Of a stretch of DNA of 41,249 nt, positions 1,382-11,521 are shown piece by piece (position 1 is the stretch's first letter; each line of letters opens with the position of its first letter). The stretch spans positions 1 through 41,249 of IMG/VR virus record IMGVR_UViG_3300040801_001750; one strand, written 5' to 3'. Origin of the DNA: a virus. Made by a program: the position numbers and the translations under genes. The notes below the pieces were generated by a model. That model did no database searches and was not told where the DNA came from. It saw nothing but the letters and a program-made list of their open reading frames with translations.

Positions 1382-3385
1382 TCAGCCTCTCGCGATGATC
1401 TGAACGCGGCCCGAGACCGGGAGGAGCCTCAGATCCAGAACCTGCACCTGCTTGCCCGCGGAGATTCCGAGTCGGGCGCTGTACAGGGTGATGTTCTTCA
1501 TGGGTTCAATCTCGGCCTGCTCCTGCCTTGAAAGCACACCTTCGACGCGCCAGTACTGGATGCGGTCGGAGTGATCCTCCAGGCGGCGGTCGGCCCGGTC
1601 CTGGAGCGCTGTCCCGCCGGGGCCGACGAGCGCGGTTTCGTCGGGCTCGGCGCCGATTGCGTGGCGGTAGTCGGGATGGAGGTTGGCGCGGGCCGAGGAG
1701 CTGGCTCGTCGGGTTGAAATAAAATCCCTGGCGCCGGCGGCCTTGGTCGCCTCGTTGACTGTGTCGGCTGCTTCGCCTTCCGGCACCGGGCGGAACTGCC
1801 GGTGGTACTTGAAGGAGTCAGTCAGAAGCTTTGCCGGAGTCGGCGAGACTTCGATCTTGGTCGTTCGATTTGTGTCGTCGAATTCTGCAACCGATGCATC
1901 GTCGGTCAGCAGGAACGGGGCGCATGTCACGCGCCCGACGCGGTCGATCCACCAAACTGAATCAGTGGACCGGAACAGCAAATCGAGCAGGTCGCGATGC
2001 GTGCTCCCATCCTGCCAGTAGTGCGCCAATTCCAGGCTGCCGGTGGCCGCCGTCGTTGACGCCAGGGCATCGTGATCGACGTCGGCATAGGCGAACGGCC
2101 CGGTTTCAGATGAGCCGTCGATGACGCCTCGCTGGCAGACCAGGTACGGGACCTGTTGATCCAGCGTCCGTGCTGGAGCTGCAAGGTCTTCGAGCCAGAT
2201 CGACTCAAAGAGTGCTGACAGGCCTGGTCCAAGTGAGTCCCGCCGAAACTCCAAGCACAGGAACAGATCATTGCCTGACGCGTCTGGCAACGTAAACTCG
2301 ACTTCGGTGGTCGAGAGGAAATCGACCACTCCGAGGTTCTCAACCAAAACCTCGACTCCATCGAGCGTGCTGAAGGCTGCCCTTACCATCAGAATCAGCT
2401 GATTGTCATACGACCCGTCGGCAACGGCCCGCCAATTCAATCGGTAGCTCTTCGTTCCCTCAAGGGCCACCCCGTGGATGATTCGCACGACGCCGGAGGT
2501 GGCGTTGTTGACCACCACCTCCAAGTGGTTGGTGCCGCTGACCCGACGTGCGTATCGAAGCCCAGCAACAAAGTTCTCGATGCGATCCCAGTTGACCGGC
2601 ACCTCCCAGTCGTTGGTCCCGTCGTTGACCGTCTGCCACTCCAAGAATCGAGTGGATTTGATCGGCCACGGCTCCAGCCTGGGACCAGAGGGCAGCACGG
2701 TTATCGGCAGCGTAGGCTGGGAGTTCAGGCGGAATCCATTGGGCCAGTCCTGGTACTGGCCCGGGTCGGTGCCCTCATAGATCGGCGCCAGGCCTTCCCG
2801 AACCCAGCCGACGCCTTGCTTGGGATAGAAGTTGTCGGCGACGTAGTAGTAGATCTCCGTCGTCGAGACCTCGTCATACACCAGCGCAGGCACATGCCAC
2901 GGCAGGCCGAGGATCATCGGCAACGGCTGGCCATCGAGATCCGAATTCGGCGCACCGTCGAAGAAGTGCTTCTGCACCGCGCCCTCGAGGTCCTCGATTC
3001 GGTCTCGAAAGCGGAGCCGGATGACCCGGCCGTCGATGTATTCGGGATGCTCCATGCGCACGATGCCGACAGAAGTCCAGTTTTCCCAGGCTTCGTCGGG
3101 ATAACCGACACGGACCTCGGCCTCCTGGCTTGTCCAGATGCCGTCCATCCACGCGTCGAGCGCGCCATCCGGATTTGCCACGTCGACTGAGCCGTAGCTC
3201 GCCGCCACGCGGCCGCGTGACCAGGGCGCGTCCACGGCCAGACGGATCTCCGGATCGGATCCAGCGACGATTCTGGGCAGCCATTGATCGCCGCCCGAGG
3301 AATAGGGGCGAGACGATATGCGCACGTCGACGGACTGCGCGGTCGCCGGATCGACATAGGTCGTCTTGATGCCGAGGGTGATCAT
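1382..3385 (-). CDS. Putative baseplate hub / tail protein
   Basis: A 667-residue protein whose ATG overlaps the tape-measure stop by four bases (ATGA at 3382-3385). The N-terminal third opens with ITLGIKTTYVDPATAQSV and has beta-rich sequence like the hub proteins that follow the tape measure in Mu-like siphophages. The middle (about residues 240-400) contains a beta-sandwich-like stretch with features of a carbohydrate-binding insertion. The C-terminal part (LLDLLFRSTDSVWWIDRVGR and beyond) resembles the part of tail hub proteins that computes a local 'line and angle' scaffold, but this is impressionistic. No lysozyme or peptidase motif is visible. Role inferred from gene order: closes the tail tube and joins it to the tip protein encoded downstream. 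Confidence 0.65.
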   Translation of the reverse strand: MITLGIKTTYVDPATAQSVDVRISSRPYSSGGDQWLPRIVAGSDPEIRLAVDAPWSRGRVAASYGSVDVANPDGALDAWMDGIWTSQEAEVRVGYPDEAWENWTSVGIVRMEHPEYIDGRVIRLRFRDRIEDLEGAVQKHFFDGAPNSDLDGQPLPMILGLPWHVPALVYDEVSTTEIYYYVADNFYPKQGVGWVREGLAPIYEGTDPGQYQDWPNGFRLNSQPTLPITVLPSGPRLEPWPIKSTRFLEWQTVNDGTNDWEVPVNWDRIENFVAGLRYARRVSGTNHLEVVVNNATSGVVRIIHGVALEGTKSYRLNWRAVADGSYDNQLILMVRAAFSTLDGVEVLVENLGVVDFLSTTEVEFTLPDASGNDLFLCLEFRRDSLGPGLSALFESIWLEDLAAPARTLDQQVPYLVCQRGVIDGSSETGPFAYADVDHDALASTTAATGSLELAHYWQDGSTHRDLLDLLFRSTDSVWWIDRVGRVTCAPFLLTDDASVAEFDDTNRTTKIEVSPTPAKLLTDSFKYHRQFRPVPEGEAADTVNEATKAAGARDFISTRRASSSARANLHPDYRHAIGAEPDETALVGPGGTALQDRADRRLEDHSDRIQYWRVEGVLSRQEQAEIEPMKNITLYSARLGISAGKQVQVLDLRLLPVSGRVQIIARG

Positions 3386-6300
3386 TGATTCATCCCCGCC
3401 ATCGATCGCGCCTCACGCGCGGCGTCTTCCATCGAGGTGGCCAGGTGAATGGTCGCCTCGCGCTGGCCTTCGGCCAGGCGCTCACGCTGCTCTGCGGCGC
3501 GACCCTCAGCTTCGACAAGCTGCTGGAGCTTTTCCACGACGCGGGTGTCCGCCATGCCATTGATATTCACGGGCAGTCCGACGCGCTGCAGGAACGTGCT
3601 GACCTCGTGCGGGAAGACCAGCTCGGGGCCGCCGCCGTCGCCGGTCATGATCAGGCCGCTCGCCCAGCCGCCCTGGGCATACATCGGCGGCGGGACCTCC
3701 GGCTCGTCCGGGATCGGCGAATTCGGCGGCGGCTGGGTCTGCTGACCGGTGTCGCCGCCGAGCGCGGCCGCAATGACCGCCAGGTGGGCAGCACTCTCGT
3801 CGCTGATCGCACGGATCTGGTCGAGGATGCCGATCTGGGCCAGTTGGAGCTCTTGGGTGTCGATCTCCTCGAAGAACGGCGCGAGCGCGTTTTTGTACTC
3901 AACCGGCAGGCCCTTCGTGGCGTTGATCAGGTTGTCGATCGCGGCGTTGGCGTCAGCTTCGTTTGTGGCCTCCCAGATGCGATCGAGCGGCCCCCAGAGT
4001 TGCTCCTGGATCTCGGGCGGCATTCGAAGGACTGCCGCCTCGATGGCCTGGCTCATCAGCGATTCCTGGTTGGCCAGTGCGCCGACGTGCATACCGATGG
4101 CCTCGGCGACTCCAGCGAGATCCATGCCCAGGGTGTTGGCCACCGCGATCAGCTGCTCGACGGTCTCGATCGAGCCGGCCTGCACCTCGCCGATCAGGGC
4201 TTCTATGATCGTGCTCAGATTGACGCCCAGGCGCTCGGCGATCGCCGGCGCCTGCGCGCCGGAGATGTCGACCAGCGCGCCGATCTGCTCGACGATCTGG
4301 GCGGCGATCGCGGTCTGGTCGCGCTGCCCCTGGGAGATCGAGTCGACACCGCTGCCGATATAGCCGACTTGCGTGCCGGTTACCGGATCCTGCGCTGCCG
4401 GCACGTCGATCCCGGCAACCTGTTCCATTGCCGAGACGATGCCGCTGAGGAAGTCCTGATAGGGCTCGGTCGCGCTGCCGTGAACCTGCACGCCCAGTTC
4501 CCGCAGCTCGCTCGCCAGTGCCGGCAGCGCGGCGATCGCGTCGGCCTGCTCCTGGCCGGAGCCAGTCAGGGCGACGTCGATCAGGCGGTAGAACTCCTCC
4601 TCCATCTCCTGCAGGCGAGCGCGCGGCGTCAGACTGGGATCTTCGAAGTCGGCGCGATTGAGCCAGTCCTGGACACCCTCCAGCGCGCGGATAATCGAGT
4701 CACGCACCTGGTTGGCCGCGTTGTCGATCGAGCTGGTGAAGTCGCTGCTGAATCCGCCGCCAAAGCTGCTGCCGCCTTGGAACTCATCCCACAGCGAACG
4801 GACCGATTCCTCGAGTTCGGCCGTCAGCTGCTGCAGCTGAAGCTGGTGCCTATAGCGCAGCACCGCCAGTTGCTGCTCACTCATTCCGAGCTCGTCGGCC
4901 CGCTTCATCAGCTCGTTGTGCGCGACCTGCAGCTGGCGCAGCTCGTTGACCAGCGGGTCAAGACTGAGGCTCGCGATGTCGTCGCGAGCGGTGGCCATGA
5001 TGTCGTCGATCTCGCGCTGGCGATCGATTTCGTCCTGTAGCGCCCAGACTCGCTGCTGCAAGGCCCTGTTGGACTCGTCGAGCTTCTGCAACTCAATCTC
5101 GCGCAGGGCGGTCGTGTTGCCCTGCAGGTCGAGCAGTTGGCGCTCCAGGCCGAGGCGCTCGTTCTGGATTGCGTCGAGTGCGCTGTAGTAGGCCTTGGCG
5201 GTATCGGTCAGCTCGATCAGCATGGCGATCTGCTCGCGCCCGGCCTGCGTCGCGGGATCGAGCGATCGCATCAGCTCCCACATGCCCTCGCTGGTGGTCG
5301 GAAGCTGAAGGCCGACTTGCTCCAGGGCACGGACCAGGTCCGACTGGGCAATCTCCATCTTGTCGGCGGCCGGCGCGAATGCTTCGAAGAAGCTGTTGAT
5401 GCCGGACATGTAGGGATCAAGGCCGCCGACCAGGTCAATCAGGCCTTGGCTGATCTGCGCGAACCGTTCCGGATCGGTCTGGTCGACCGCCCAGCCGAAA
5501 CGACGCATCGCTTCCTCGTTGACCTGGACACCTGTAGCGACTCGAATCAGGGTGTCTGCCAGACCTTCGCCGACCTGCTGGAACTGCGGGAGGAACGGGA
5601 CCACCTGACCAGCCAGGCCGTCGAAGATCTTCGAGAAGACGGCCTCGAGCTCGGCTTGCTGTTCTTCAGCCGTCAGATCCTTCAGGCTGATCTGCTGAGC
5701 CTCAACTTCGTACTGAGCGATCGCCGCCTCGATCTCATCGGCAGACAGGCCGAGAGCCTCTGCCCCGGCTGCAACGCTGTCGGCGATCGATTCGAAGATC
5801 AGCTGGAACTGTCGAGAGATGTCGTCATCGAGATCGGCGAAAGCGGTCTTGCGCTTGCTCGACCCGAAGACCCACTTCTTGTACTTGACCTCTTGGAAGG
5901 CCTGGACGAGCGTCTCATCGATCAGCTCTCCGATGGTGCCGCCGAGGATCGCGATCCCCTCGTCGACCACCTTGCTGCTGCCGCCGAACAGTTCGCCCAC
6001 CCAGTCGAACAGGCCGCCGAACAAGCCCAGCGGGTCAAGCGTGAACTCAACGGCGTCCCACACCTCGCCCAGCGCTCCCCAGTTATGGGCGTTTTCGTAC
6101 TTCGCGAAATCCGTGCCGAACGCGAACTCGGAGTCGCCCGCGCCACGGGCCAGCATGCCGCTTGCACCGGCAATGCCGTCAGCCAGGCGCTGGAGGTTGC
6201 GCGCCATGCTGCGGTTGATTCCGGGCAGCTGGCTGACGGCCTTGGCCGTGGTCTCGGAGGCGCTGAGTATCGACTCGCTCTTGGCCTCGCTGTCGCCCAG

Positions 6301-8979
6301 GACCGAGCCAGTGCCCTGACGGTCTTGCCGATCCTGCGCCGTCGTGTCCATGCCGGCACCGAAGCCCTGGATGCTGCCCACCAGACCGGCCACGGCCGAT
6401 GCCATTGCCGCCATGCGGAACGGCGCGGTGTACGGGTCGCCCATGCCCTGGTTCAGAATCGCGGCGATCGCCGCCTGCAGGTTGGCGGCTGCAATCGCCA
6501 CCTCGATGGCCTGGTACTCCTTGGAGCCCACCTCGGTCAGCTGCTGAATGCTGCGCAACGCTTGCCCGGTGCCCTGGGCGTAGGCGGCCATCATCGCGGC
6601 GACGTCCAGGCCGGCGCCGCCCAGCTCGCCCCGCAGTTGCGCGATGGCATCCTGCAGTCGAGCGACGACCTCCGGGTCAGTTGCGTCGGCCAGGGCCTCC
6701 TCGAGCGTCTGGATGTCGCGGATCAGCGGATCCATGTCCATCTGATCGACCCAGTCAAGGATCTCCTGGACTTCCTGACTCAGATTGGCAAAAGGATCGG
6801 AGTCGAGGCCGTCGATCTGCTCTCGGAGGTACTCGATGATTCGGGCGACCTGGTCGCTGGAGACGCCCATCGTCTGCAGCTGTTGACTAGTAAGGCCGGC
6901 CAGCTCCTGCATGGCCTGCAGCTGGGAGTTGAGCTCCTGCTCGCGCGCCACCAGGGGATTGGCAGCGGCCAGCAGTTGGCCGTAGGTATTGGCGAGCTGG
7001 TCGAGGCGCTGCTTGTGTTGTTGCTCGGCCCTCGAGGCCGCTTCGGTGGCTTTTCGGTTTGCATCGATCTCGCCGGTTAGTTCGCGCAGCGTCTCGAACT
7101 TCTCGCGGATCGCCTCACGGTCGGCCCTGGTGGTCGCTTGAGCCAGTGCCTGGGCTTCCTGGAATTCGAGCGTGGCCATCGCCGCGGTCTGACGGCCGGC
7201 GGCGACTTCCTCGAGCACGAACAGCTCTTGCTGCAGCTTGGTGACCTGCTGCTCGAGCGGCTCGATCAGCTTCTCGTTAGCGGGCCCGGCATCTTCAACA
7301 CTCTGGCGCCATTTTCCGAAAGCATCGGAGGCCTTGTCGCCCAGGACGTCAGCCAAGCCGCCCATCCAGTCGAGGGTCTCGCCCATCATGCGCAGGCTTT
7401 CGGCCTGCTGCTCGTCGGGCGTCATTTCTGCCCAGGCGGCCGCGGCCTTCTGTGCTAGCTCGTCGTATTCCTTCTGGACCGCTTCGAGTTGCTCGCGCTG
7501 CGTGGCTAGGCTTTCCTCGAGCGCCTTCTGCTGCGCGGTCGCCCCGGTCCCGGCAGGATCCACGAATGCGGCGACGTCGCCACGCACACCAGGTGCGGGA
7601 TTCGAGATCCGATCCATGCGCAGCTGATTGAGTCGCTCAAGCTGCCGTTCGGTCTCGTTGATCTCCTGCTTGAGTTCGGCGATATCCGAGCGGAACGGAG
7701 CCAGATCGATGCCGGGCTCGATGGGCTCCTCCGCAATAAGCTGAAGCCGCTCGAGCAATTCGGCGGCCGTGCCGGCCGGCTCGCGCAGCTCGTCGAGTTC
7801 GTTGCGGAACGAAAGCATCCGGCTGCCAAGCAAGCCCACGCCGATCACCAGCGCACCGACTGGGCCGCCGACAAGCGCCAGCGCGCCGCTCGCCGCGCGA
7901 GTGGCCCCGGCCAGCGCCAGCTGGCTTGCAGCGGCCGTGCGAGACAGGCCCGCCATGCTGGCCAGGGCTGCCTGGTAGCGGATCGACTCTGCCAAAGCGG
8001 CGCGCTGCGCCAGCGTCCAGGTCGCCAGTGAGCCGGCCAGGCGGCCGCCGATCAGCAGAGCCAGCAGCTCGGCCGCATCGACGACCGTATCGAGGTTCTC
8101 GGCCACTGCCTGCAACGATTCGGCGATCTCGCGGCTGGCGCCGATGCCCTCGTCCTTTTCCCCAACGTAGGCGGTGACCGCGTTCTGCAGCGCTTGCCAG
8201 GATCGGGCGATGGTCGGCGGGATGGAGGACGCTTCCCGGGCGATTTCCTCGCCCTGTGATATCAGCGCATCGGTAACCACCTGGGTGGTGAGCTCACCTT
8301 GCTCGGCCAGCTCTCGCAGTTGACCGATCGTCAGGCCCAATGCGTTGGCCAGCGCCTGCGCAACGCGCGGCGTTTGCTCCATCACGGAACGGAACTCTTC
8401 GCCGCGCAGTTCGCCAGACGCCAGGCCTTGGGCAAGCTGGATCATCGCGGCGTTTGCTTCCGTCGCCGAAGCGCCCGAGGCCAGCACGGCGTCGCTCACG
8501 ATCTCGGCCAGCAGAAGACCCTTGCGGATCGCCTCGTCGGCCGACTCGCCGGAGGATTCCAGGGCCCGAATGGTTCGGGTGGTCAGCTGGCTGACCGTGC
8601 TGAGCGATTGGCCGGTTCGGGATGCGATCTCCTCGACACGCTCGAACACCATCGCTTGCTGCTCGGCCGACTCGGTAACGATGGCGATCTGGGCGTTGAG
8701 GTTGGTGTACTCGTCGGCCATCCGGCCGAGCTTGATCGCCGTCTGGAATGTCAGATATCCAGCCACCAGCGCTTTGACGCGCCGGGTGAGGTTTTCGGTG
8801 GTGTCGCCGAGCCGGCTGGTCTGCTGCTCGGTTTCCTTGAGCGCCTTGGTGCCCTTCTTGGCGCCGCCTTCAAGCTGGTCGCCGAACTTCACGACCTCCC
8901 CAGACGCATTGCGCAGCTCGCCGCGGAGGCCGGAGCCGTCCGCGTTGAGTCGCAATGTCAGTCTGAGGTCCTGGCTCAC
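3382..8979 (-). CDS. Tape measure protein
   Basis: The largest gene (1865 codons), starting with GTG at 8979 in a GTGA overlap with the stop of the frameshifted chaperone reading frame. Residues about 70-270 fit the tape-measure N-terminal domain: the region includes ATEANAAMIQLAQGLASGEL, RGEEFRSVMEQTPRVAQALA and a following LAEQGELTT. Long coiled-coil, Gln/Glu/Ala-rich stretches follow, with a hydrophobic Gly/Ala segment near residues 365-390 that could be membrane-active during DNA injection. The C-terminus has the Gly-rich GGWASGLIMTGDGGGPELVFP element common in tape measures, then a charged helix. By the usual 0.15 nm per residue, the tail would be roughly 280 nm. It sits directly after the chaperones, the canonical siphophage order. 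Confidence 0.92.
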   Translation of the reverse strand: MSQDLRLTLRLNADGSGLRGELRNASGEVVKFGDQLEGGAKKGTKALKETEQQTSRLGDTTENLTRRVKALVAGYLTFQTAIKLGRMADEYTNLNAQIAIVTESAEQQAMVFERVEEIASRTGQSLSTVSQLTTRTIRALESSGESADEAIRKGLLLAEIVSDAVLASGASATEANAAMIQLAQGLASGELRGEEFRSVMEQTPRVAQALANALGLTIGQLRELAEQGELTTQVVTDALISQGEEIAREASSIPPTIARSWQALQNAVTAYVGEKDEGIGASREIAESLQAVAENLDTVVDAAELLALLIGGRLAGSLATWTLAQRAALAESIRYQAALASMAGLSRTAAASQLALAGATRAASGALALVGGPVGALVIGVGLLGSRMLSFRNELDELREPAGTAAELLERLQLIAEEPIEPGIDLAPFRSDIAELKQEINETERQLERLNQLRMDRISNPAPGVRGDVAAFVDPAGTGATAQQKALEESLATQREQLEAVQKEYDELAQKAAAAWAEMTPDEQQAESLRMMGETLDWMGGLADVLGDKASDAFGKWRQSVEDAGPANEKLIEPLEQQVTKLQQELFVLEEVAAGRQTAAMATLEFQEAQALAQATTRADREAIREKFETLRELTGEIDANRKATEAASRAEQQHKQRLDQLANTYGQLLAAANPLVAREQELNSQLQAMQELAGLTSQQLQTMGVSSDQVARIIEYLREQIDGLDSDPFANLSQEVQEILDWVDQMDMDPLIRDIQTLEEALADATDPEVVARLQDAIAQLRGELGGAGLDVAAMMAAYAQGTGQALRSIQQLTEVGSKEYQAIEVAIAAANLQAAIAAILNQGMGDPYTAPFRMAAMASAVAGLVGSIQGFGAGMDTTAQDRQDRQGTGSVLGDSEAKSESILSASETTAKAVSQLPGINRSMARNLQRLADGIAGASGMLARGAGDSEFAFGTDFAKYENAHNWGALGEVWDAVEFTLDPLGLFGGLFDWVGELFGGSSKVVDEGIAILGGTIGELIDETLVQAFQEVKYKKWVFGSSKRKTAFADLDDDISRQFQLIFESIADSVAAGAEALGLSADEIEAAIAQYEVEAQQISLKDLTAEEQQAELEAVFSKIFDGLAGQVVPFLPQFQQVGEGLADTLIRVATGVQVNEEAMRRFGWAVDQTDPERFAQISQGLIDLVGGLDPYMSGINSFFEAFAPAADKMEIAQSDLVRALEQVGLQLPTTSEGMWELMRSLDPATQAGREQIAMLIELTDTAKAYYSALDAIQNERLGLERQLLDLQGNTTALREIELQKLDESNRALQQRVWALQDEIDRQREIDDIMATARDDIASLSLDPLVNELRQLQVAHNELMKRADELGMSEQQLAVLRYRHQLQLQQLTAELEESVRSLWDEFQGGSSFGGGFSSDFTSSIDNAANQVRDSIIRALEGVQDWLNRADFEDPSLTPRARLQEMEEEFYRLIDVALTGSGQEQADAIAALPALASELRELGVQVHGSATEPYQDFLSGIVSAMEQVAGIDVPAAQDPVTGTQVGYIGSGVDSISQGQRDQTAIAAQIVEQIGALVDISGAQAPAIAERLGVNLSTIIEALIGEVQAGSIETVEQLIAVANTLGMDLAGVAEAIGMHVGALANQESLMSQAIEAAVLRMPPEIQEQLWGPLDRIWEATNEADANAAIDNLINATKGLPVEYKNALAPFFEEIDTQELQLAQIGILDQIRAISDESAAHLAVIAAALGGDTGQQTQPPPNSPIPDEPEVPPPMYAQGGWASGLIMTGDGGGPELVFPHEVSTFLQRVGLPVNINGMADTRVVEKLQQLVEAEGRAAEQRERLAEGQREATIHLATSMEDAAREARSMAGMNQ

Positions 8980-9341
8980 TTGTTGCTTCTCGTCTTCTTG
9001 TTCAGCTGGTCGACCACTTCATCGCGGTAGGCCGAGTCGAGGTGGCGGATCTTCTGGAGCAGGCCGGGCGTCAGCTTGATCTCGCAGACCCGGCAGACTG
9101 CTTCGATCTCGGTTGTTTCGATGCCGACCGGGATGGCTCCGGAGAATCCGAGTTGCAGCGGCTTGTTGCATCGCTGCCAAACGATGACTGCAGGAAGGTT
9201 GGTCTGAAGGACCTCGATCTCGCGCTCCGGCCGTTTCGTGCCGGCCGGAACGATGATCCCGAGGGCGGCGTAGTCCGCATCGCCCTCAACCTCTTTCTGC
9301 TTGGGCTTTAGCCGCGCCCACGCCCGCCCGACCTCAGCAAG
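8976..9341 (-). CDS. Tail assembly chaperone, frameshift extension (gpGT-type C-terminal part)
   Basis: An open -1 frame of 121 codons with no in-frame ATG, so it cannot easily be translated alone. It is entered from the upstream chaperone at a GGGAAAC heptamer (9341-9347), continues through the upstream stop at 9308-9310, and ends in a TGA (8976-8978) that overlaps the tape-measure GTG start. After the shift it reads LAEVGRAWARLKPKQKEVEG, later includes a CRVC pair, and ends in a basic NKKTRSNK tail. The fusion product would be 274 residues (153 + 121). This matches the gpG/gpGT system of lambda and most long-tailed phages, where the extended form binds the tape measure and recruits tail tube subunits. 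Confidence 0.85.
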   Translation of the reverse strand, partial: LAEVGRAWARLKPKQKEVEGDADYAALGIIVPAGTKRPEREIEVLQTNLPAVIVWQRCNKPLQLGFSGAIPVGIETTEIEAVCRVCEIKLTPGLLQKIRHLDSAYRDEVVDQLNKKTRSNK

Positions 9342-9799
9342 TTTCCCAGGGCGGCCGTTTCGCCTTCTTCGTTCTCTTCGGCGTACTTCTTGAGAATGGC
9401 TTTCTTCCAGCGCGGGTACTTCTTGGCGAAGTCGAGTAGCGCCTTGCCGGTGACCGGGTTGTCGTCGCTGTCCAGCACCTCGCTGCCCTCCGGCAGCTCG
9501 ACTGCGACGAGGATGCGGTCGATCTTCGGCTTGACCTCGTCAAGCCCTTCAAGGTCTTCCTCGGCCTTGGCGACCTGATCTTCGTCCGGCGCTCCGTCAC
9601 GCATGGAGTGCATGAGCTTCATCAACGCATCCCGGCCGGCCTCAATCTTTTCCTGGTCGGACTGCAGCGTTTCGGGATCGATATCGCGGAACTCGACGAT
9701 GATCTGGGCCTTCATGGGCTCGAGGCCGTCGCCGGGCACCTCGACTTCGACCTTTCGCTTATAGGTCGAGGCGATCTTGAGGCGGAAGTTTTTGGCCAT
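9308..9799 (-). CDS. Tail assembly chaperone (gpG-type, unshifted form)
   Basis: A 163-residue acidic protein. The start MAKNFRLKIASTYKR at 9799 is preferred over an in-frame upstream start at 9847 because an AGGAG element lies 9 bases before it. The sequence begins with basic beta strands, followed by an acidic helical region (EEDLEGLDEVKPKIDRILVA) and ends in a Gly/Arg tail. It lies between the tail tube and tape measure genes, the fixed place of the gpG chaperone. The slippery heptamer near codon 152-153 produces the longer gpGT form. As in lambda, a fixed ratio of the two forms would guide tube polymerisation around the tape measure; neither should remain in the virion. Confidence 0.85.
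   Translation of the reverse strand: MAKNFRLKIASTYKRKVEVEVPGDGLEPMKAQIIVEFRDIDPETLQSDQEKIEAGRDALMKLMHSMRDGAPDEDQVAKAEEDLEGLDEVKPKIDRILVAVELPEGSEVLDSDDNPVTGKALLDFAKKYPRWKKAILKKYAEENEEGETAALGNLLRSGGRGRG
9341..9347 (-). promoter_or_regulatory. Programmed -1 ribosomal frameshift site GGGAAAC
   Basis: On the minus strand the zero frame reads ...CTG GGA AAC TTG..., giving a perfect X XXY YYZ heptamer (G GGA AAC). The lambda G-T site is GGGAAAG, differing only in the last base. The site sits 30 bases before the zero-frame stop, and the -1 frame is open for 121 codons beyond it. The downstream 30 bases are very GC-rich (GGGCGGGCGTGGGCGCGGC) and could form a stimulatory structure. Confidence 0.88.
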
Positions 9800-9883: not shown

Positions 9884-10564
9884 TCAGGGGTCGCCGCCCG
9901 CGTCGGGCGGATCGGTACTGCAGTCGCCGCCGTCGCGGCAGTCGCCGGCGTTGTCGATTGGGCCCGGGGAGGCGTCGCGGTCGTCGCCTGGACTGTTCCA
10001 GCGGCCGTCATTGCGGATCTGGTCGCGTCCTGCGTCGTCGCCGTCGGATCCGATGCGGCCGCTGTTGTCGATACGGTCGCCAGCGATCTCGTCGCCCGGG
10101 CTGCCGATGCGGCCGCTGTTGTCGACGCGGTCGCCGTGGATCAGGTCGCCGCCGGCGGTATCGCCTGGCGAACCCATCCGGCCGGAGTTGCTGATCGACG
10201 TATTGCCGCCGGCGTTGTTGACGGCCGATGTGGCGAACTCAACGGCTTGCTGAATGCCGTAGCCCTTGAGTGCCGTGTCGCCGAGAATGCCCAGCGCCTG
10301 GACCCACGGATTCGGGCCCGCCTGGTACTGGCGAATGCCCTCGGTGCCGTCTGGCGCGTACACGGCAAAGCGCTCCACGCCCTGGAGCGTGATCGCCTGC
10401 CCTGCCTGGGCCACGAACTCCACGATGGGCTGGCGCTCGGCTTGGCTGGCTGCCTGGGCTTTGTAGTAGGCCGCCTCGGCCGTAGCGCGGTGGCGGGTGT
10501 GCGTGCAGCCGGCCAGCACGAGGCTGGCCAGTGCAACGAGTAGCAGTGTGCGGATGCGGAACAT
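9884..10564 (-). CDS. Phage lipoprotein with C-terminal 18-residue repeats
   Basis: A 226-residue protein with a signal peptide (MFRIRTLLLVALASLVLAGC) ending in a clear lipobox LAGC; Cys20 would be lipidated and the protein anchored in the outer (or inner) membrane. Residues about 25-110 form a helical, Gln/Ala-rich domain. From about residue 125 come four degenerate copies of an 18-20-residue unit based on DNSGRIGSPGDEIAGDRI, then an Asp/Gly/Cys tail. It lies between the tail tube and chaperone genes in the late operon. Phage lipoproteins expressed late can block receptors (as T5 Llp does) or act at the cell envelope during lysis. That role is only an inference here, and the repeats do not match a family I recognise. 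Confidence 0.75.
   Translation of the reverse strand: MFRIRTLLLVALASLVLAGCTHTRHRATAEAAYYKAQAASQAERQPIVEFVAQAGQAITLQGVERFAVYAPDGTEGIRQYQAGPNPWVQALGILGDTALKGYGIQQAVEFATSAVNNAGGNTSISNSGRMGSPGDTAGGDLIHGDRVDNSGRIGSPGDEIAGDRIDNSGRIGSDGDDAGRDQIRNDGRWNSPGDDRDASPGPIDNAGDCRDGGDCSTDPPDAGGDP
9956..10192 (-). repeat. Degenerate tandem 54-bp repeats inside the lipoprotein gene
   Basis: Residues about 125-203 of the lipoprotein hold four imperfect units with core N-S/D-G-R-I/M/W-G/N-S-P/D-GD. The two central copies (DNSGRIGSPGDEIAGDRI and DNSGRIGSDGDDAGRDQI) are the most alike. On the plus strand the repeat shows as recurring gccgctgttgtcgat blocks. The spacing and Asp/Gly content suggest a regular, possibly Ca-binding or beta-solenoid, rod. 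Confidence 0.7.
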
Positions 10565-10576
10565 GTCAGCGCCGCC

Positions 10577-11521
10577 TTACGAGCTGCTGCCGAAGCGCAG
10601 CAGGTAGTCGTCGTTGCCGGCGTCCGGCAGCAGCCGGATGGGAATATCCCACACGCGAAGGCCGTCTAGCTCCGCATTCTGCGGTTCGCCGATCTGCACG
10701 CTCGGCGCCTCGAGCGCGAGGTCCTTGGCCGCCGTACCGGTCACGTAGTCGACCAGCAGCGTCTGCAGCGTCTGGTTCTGCGCCAGCGACCGGATGTTGG
10801 CCGTGGCGTTCAGCGGCCGGTAGACGCGGAGCGTGCCGGTCACCGCCCGGGCCGACTGGCGGCTGATCGTGGCCTCCGTGTGATAGGCGAGCGCCAGGTT
10901 AATACCCGGATCCAGGCTCAGGCTCACCGCCTCGAGCGCCACGCCGCCGAGCTCGACGGTCATGTTGGCCTCGACGCCCACGATGGGCGACTGGAAGGCG
11001 CTCAGGTCGTCGGTCGGAACCGACTCCTCGACAGCGCCCTCGACCTTGCCCATCAATTCGATACCCGCCTTGGGGAAGTCATTGATGGCCAGGTCGATCG
11101 ACGTGAGCCGGCCTCGGCCACCGACCGCCTGCAGCGTCTCACCACCGTGGTAGAAAAAGAACGTCGCCGACGGAAAGCCGTTGAGCACCGGCGTGTATTC
11201 GGCGTTGGCGGGCGGTCCTGCGTTGAGGGCTTCGGTGTGCCCCATGTTGCGCAGAAGGTCGCCGACCGGGGCGGCGTCGCCCGCGGTGGACGCACCGGCC
11301 AGCTCGATCTCGCCGGTGACCATCACGCGTCGGCGAACCGGCACGTAAGGTCGGGCACCGCCGGCGGGGCGATCGAGGTTGCGCTCGATCTGGTCAACCG
11401 AGATCTGACCCTCGCCGTTGAGAATCTGGACAGCGTCGGCCTCGGCCAGGGATTCGGCCGTGCCCTCCACCGATTCGATCTTGTGGCGCAGCGCGCGCAG
11501 GTCAAAGATATCGAGAGGCAT
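10577..11521 (-). CDS. Major tail tube protein
   Basis: A 314-residue protein beginning MPLDIFDLRALRHKIESVEG. The sequence is beta-rich (RRRVMVTGEIELAG, then ATFFFYHGGETLQAVGG) as expected for siphovirus tube proteins with a DUF-type tube fold. The gene is long for a minimal tube and may carry an extra surface domain. It lies between head-completion genes and the chaperone/tape measure genes, the fixed place of the tube gene in B3/D3112-type phages. The absence of a tail sheath gene nearby supports a non-contractile tail. Confidence 0.8.
   Translation of the reverse strand: MPLDIFDLRALRHKIESVEGTAESLAEADAVQILNGEGQISVDQIERNLDRPAGGARPYVPVRRRVMVTGEIELAGASTAGDAAPVGDLLRNMGHTEALNAGPPANAEYTPVLNGFPSATFFFYHGGETLQAVGGRGRLTSIDLAINDFPKAGIELMGKVEGAVEESVPTDDLSAFQSPIVGVEANMTVELGGVALEAVSLSLDPGINLALAYHTEATISRQSARAVTGTLRVYRPLNATANIRSLAQNQTLQTLLVDYVTGTAAKDLALEAPSVQIGEPQNAELDGLRVWDIPIRLLPDAGNDDYLLRFGSSS

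Follow-up and report, generated by a model that had tools for sequence, protein, structure and literature searches.

A Mu-like phage very probably makes a lambda-type G/GT tail chaperone pair, TAC_4/DUF1799-like in sequence, by -1 frameshifting at GGGAAAC

The slippery heptamer of the phage lambda tail chaperone gene is GGGAAAG. According to the part of PMC5009743 cited here, the G/GT system is widely conserved, G binds the tape measure protein and T binds the tail tube protein in lambda, and lambda-type frameshift sites can do without a 3′ RNA structure. A GGGAAAC frameshift has been predicted in the tail chaperones of Burkholderia phage KL1 (gp18/gp19) and Caulobacter phage Colossus, in the relevant passages of PMC3483164 and PMC3556154, respectively. 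For Mu-like phages with siphovirus tails, -1 frameshifting has already been proposed, with T_TTT_TTC as the site in PaMx73 (cited part of PMC4378225), and according to the corresponding passage of PMC2628397 the transposable phage KS10 yielded no such frameshift site. A literature search for DUF1799 in combination with frameshifting found no paper, and the pairing may be in print elsewhere.

The window, by which we mean the whole 41,249-nucleotide stretch of viral DNA analysed, encodes MuA, MuB, Mu protease, gpT, portal and F-like proteins. The following features make up its G/T locus and the neighboring tail genes.

10577..11521, minus strand: gene for the probable tail tube (major tail) protein, the second gene upstream of G (match to phrog_290, 'minor tail protein', at E 8.5e-7; conserved in L046)
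9884-10564, minus strand: predicted lipoprotein, 226 aa (lipobox LVLAGC)
9308..9799, minus strand: zero-frame gene G, putative TAC_4-like tail assembly chaperone (open reading frame, codon score, sub-threshold PF08748, profile match)
9341..9347, minus strand: slippery heptamer GGGAAAC, zero-frame phase G_GGA_AAC (read 9347-9341; kept in L046/L047, L003-L007 and L012)
9308..9340, minus strand: the 10 zero-frame codons and TAA that follow the heptamer, dual-coded with T (frame reading; same length and stop in L046)
8976..9341, minus strand: T, the -1 frame extension of 121 codons plus TGA, DUF1799-like (open frame, phrog_680, profile match, dN/dS)
3382..8979, minus strand: tape measure protein gene with a GTG start (PF20155 TMP_3, E 1.6e-53; many tape measure PHROGs)

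G runs from ATG 9799 to TAA 9310-9308 and encodes 163 aa. An earlier note on this DNA had placed G_GGA_AAC in the correct phase 30 bases before the zero-frame stop, and this proved exact on the minus strand, the TAA lying 30 nt (10 codons) past the heptamer. From 9341 the -1 frame reads 121 codons to TGA 8978-8976, so that the fused G and T product would have the 274 residues previously given for it. The frame is open already from 9539, just past an upstream TGA. The claim that it contains no ATG was borne out by a scan for starts, in which TTG was also absent; its sole GTG, at 9017, lies 13 codons before the end and is far too late. The frame does end where the tape measure gene starts, its TGA overlapping GTG 8979-8977 as GTGA.

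The order of genes is probable tail tube, G/GT and tape measure, with the PF20155 gene directly downstream of G/T. The tail tube identity is probable and is drawn from the place of the gene. The predicted lipoprotein encoded between the phrog_290 gene and G has a low-complexity, Gly/Asp/Ser-rich C-terminal half and only weak family matches. A counterpart is found at the equivalent place in L046 (1634-2272).

In a codon usage model trained on 11 long window genes, G scored +0.64 per codon in its own zero frame. Beyond the heptamer the -1 frame scored +0.33 per codon and the other two frames -0.55 and -0.58, codon bias and GC3 both switching to the -1 frame at the site. The GC content of T by codon position (0.66, 0.41 and 0.80) is like that of real window genes. 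T is genuine coding sequence in the -1 frame. No significant 3′ RNA stimulator structure was detected beyond the heptamer (z +0.36, -1.22 and +0.28). An AlphaFold2 model of T from a nine-sequence alignment (pLDDT 60, pTM 0.49) was too poor for a fold search.

T matched the tail family phrog_680 (E 4e-7), the model of which is also matched by a DUF1799 relative, and aligned with a DUF1799 protein profile in hhalign (95.2%, E 2.6e-8). G aligned with a TAC_4 protein profile from 18 phages/contigs (90.5%, E 1.4e-6). Swapped profile controls gave 0.1% and 0.2%, the latter on the side of G and TAC_4. With the Pfam models themselves, G stayed below the cut-off of PF08748 (TAC_4; 15.6 bits versus 21.1, E 0.019), and no window protein matched PF08809 (DUF1799) at E up to 1. 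Two fused profiles, phrog_569 and phrog_17368, cover both the G and T halves. The profile comparisons support placing the window pair in the TAC_4/DUF1799 chaperone family, with a distant homology that appears at the profile level.

The earlier note had suggested B3 and D3112 for comparison. These phages are poor comparators because their chaperones belong to another family: both match PF20336 / phrog_1442, to neither of which G has a match, and they carry other heptamers. Their -1 frames do open after those heptamers, and the D3112 T gave no profile match (0.1%). The proper comparators are the TAC_4/DUF1799 phages.

With T as the query, no close relatives were found in the viral contig, genome contig or phage collections. 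G as the query found L046 and L047, and alignment-based searches added only the same contigs and a fragment, L051. Two other candidates, L044 and L045, look like chance matches and were rejected as relatives. L046 and L047 show 10 differences over the compared stretch and hence represent one lineage, the only close one found in the searches with T, G and alignments. L046 is 57% identical to the window in G and 60% identical in T. Loss of the heptamer or of the open -1 frame in close relatives had been named as the observation that would tell against frameshifting; L046 and L047 keep both, together with the 10-codon zero-frame tail and its TAA. The T of L046 overlaps the tape measure gene by 4 bases. 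Between the window and L046, T differs at codon positions 1, 2 and 3 in 41, 26 and 64 places, and NG86 values of dN 0.36 and dS 1.18 give a dN/dS of about 0.3. Both measures indicate that selection acts on the -1 frame. The conservation of T with its relatives begins at the heptamer (GKL...). Immediately ahead of G, within its tail operon, L046 carries a tRNA-Met (CAT) gene (2390-2465); no tRNA gene is present in the window.

Among 17 tape measure relatives from IMG/VR, 12 were scored for heptamers; L008, L014 and L016 end before G, L009 has no clear pair and L019 has no pair. Every one of the 12 scored loci gave a heptamer candidate, with a T that is only putative in L010/L011 and L018. In L003-L007 the product encoded ahead of the tape measure region is clearly a TAC_4 protein, extended in the -1 frame by a DUF1799 part at GGGAAAC; one member of this group gave E 1.2e-22 for TAC_4 and E 4.4e-18 for the extension. 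The heptamer is GGGAAAC in L012 and AAAAAAC in L013, L015 and L017. The Billgrantia tape measure relatives L042/L043 gave no G/GT candidate; one single open frame of 285 codons precedes their tape measure gene. At about 2945-3130, L009 contains a tail gene with a long serine run, with Gln/Leu repeats in another frame, which is perhaps a repeat expansion or an assembly artefact.

A DUF1799 query returned 41 phage records, 18 of which were read, chosen to spread organisms and not at random. T lies in the -1 frame of G in all 18. An in-phase heptamer is present at the end of G in 17 (GGGAAAC in 11, AAAAAAC in five and GGGAAAA in one), and the zero-frame stop directly follows it in 15 of these 17. 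Xanthomonas phage phiXacJX1 (L040, about 1195-1204) is without a canonical heptamer and has C_CGA_AAA, with T still in the -1 frame; its relative MK21 (L037) has G_GGA_AAA at the same place. The joined G/T product is annotated in one of the 18 phages, Silvanus, and the GenBank records of many relatives give T as a separate CDS with a late ATG, GTG or TTG start. In Acidovorax phage Aval the T half (L025 1228-1539) carries the apparently wrong annotation of FAD-dependent oxidoreductase. The expectation that a simple gene call misses T agrees with what is found, callers either dropping T or, as in Aval, mislabelling it.

We consider it very likely that programmed -1 ribosomal frameshifting makes a lambda-type G/GT tail-assembly chaperone pair from the one window gene. 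Most ribosomes would finish G, and a minority would slip back one base at G_GGA_AAC to make GT, with re-pairing of the P- and A-site tRNAs on GGG AAA. By analogy with lambda, G would coat the tape measure protein, and recruitment of the tail-tube protein would fall to the T part. Slippage, its efficiency and the chaperone action are what we infer from the observed frame anatomy, coding signal, homology and conservation. At the sequence level, homology, codon bias, heptamer conservation and purifying selection in the -1 frame all support the lambda-type reading put forward in the earlier note.

The coincidence of an open -1 frame and a heptamer could arise by chance in GC-rich DNA. The window has a GC content of 64.5%, and at least 99 open -1 codons follow six of the 13 in-phase X_XXY_YYZ heptamers counted in 18 genes (7904 codons); GGGAAAC itself is not enriched (2 seen versus 4.15 expected). 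Because long open -1 frames are common at such GC, the open frame alone is weak evidence, and arguments from the heptamer count alone or the open frame alone were dropped. From the observed rates, the probability of any in-phase heptamer among the final 13 codons of a given gene is ∼0.02 and that of an in-phase XXXAAAZ there is ∼0.003, XXXAAAZ occurring in phase twice in the 7904 codons with G's own site counted. GGA accounts for 6% of Gly codons, and the probability of G GGA AAC given Leu-Gly-Asn is ∼0.03. It is the combination of site position, rare codon, coding-signal switch, family match and conservation in relatives that goes beyond chance. With purifying selection also contradicting it, coincidence is almost certainly not the explanation. 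The same judgement holds for the splitting of one fused gene by a true frameshift mutation or by an indel from sequencing or assembly: the halves are one protein in function and phrog_569 and phrog_17368 span both, but the same -1 relation at the heptamer recurs in independent phages (18 of the 18 read) and in L046.

That T is a separate gene, translated from a start of its own through reinitiation or coupling downstream of the G stop, is what most GenBank records of relatives imply by annotating it as a distinct CDS. We rejected these annotations as evidence of expression. The annotated starts vary among the relatives and cut into the conserved domain, whereas conservation begins at the heptamer; the window frame offers neither ATG nor TTG and only the late GTG, and the first GTG of the L046 -1 frame (3079) has no counterpart in the window. 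A separate T gene is, on this evidence, very unlikely. Transcriptional rather than ribosomal slippage could also yield a -1 product, and the run of A in the AAAAAAC of some relatives would suit it. However, GGGAAAC, the heptamer in the window, in L046 and in 11 of the 18 phages, contains no long homopolymer and appears to be the classic tandem-tRNA slip form, which makes a transcriptional origin extremely improbable. Ribosomal -1 frameshifting at GGGAAAC is the reading that we retain.

The site is very probably an ordinary phage tail-chaperone frameshift of a kind common in tailed phages, known in kind and involving no new mechanism. Its recognition corrects the annotation of a T half otherwise dropped or mislabelled by simple gene callers. 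It also adds a Mu-like phage with a TAC_4/DUF1799 chaperone, not one of the D3112 type, as a small case of tail-module exchange. The length of the zero-frame tail and its TAA are the same in two phages that are 57-60% identical (the window and L046); in most of the TAC_4/DUF1799 family the stop comes right behind the heptamer. A joint reading, speculative and in our judgement unlikely, is that this lineage moved the zero-frame stop 10 codons past the heptamer and held it there, that this dual-coded stretch of 30 nt could adjust the G:GT ratio or give G a further function, and that the phage combines a Mu-like head and transposition module with a lambda-type TAC_4/DUF1799 tail.

Like the window, the Mu-like phages D3112, B3 and PaMx73 have a putative -1 site ahead of their tape measure genes, but their heptamers are TTTTTTC or CCCTTTC and that of the window is GGGAAAC. 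The phage Mu chaperone is likewise frameshifted and encoded before the tape measure gene, but Mu uses a -2 shift (cited part of PMC5009743). The likeness to KL1 and Colossus is one of published prediction, as given in the cited passages. In the TAC_4/DUF1799 siphophages (VarioGold, Aval, Silvanus, CUB19, phiES15 and others) both halves are homologous at the profile level to those of the window, T is in the -1 frame and the heptamers are of the same types. These siphophages differ in that they are distant and have a stop mostly right after the heptamer; the MuA and Mu gpT families were not found in the 11 records with related chaperones that were checked, several of them fragments, with a MuA search that does detect the window's own record. 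With lambda gpG/gpGT the window shares the position of the gene before the tape measure gene, a short and a -1-extended product, and a G-type X_XXY_YYZ heptamer near the end of G. It differs from lambda in its families (TAC_4/DUF1799), in a heptamer that ends in C, in the 10 zero-frame codons that follow this heptamer and in its Mu-like head and transposition genes.
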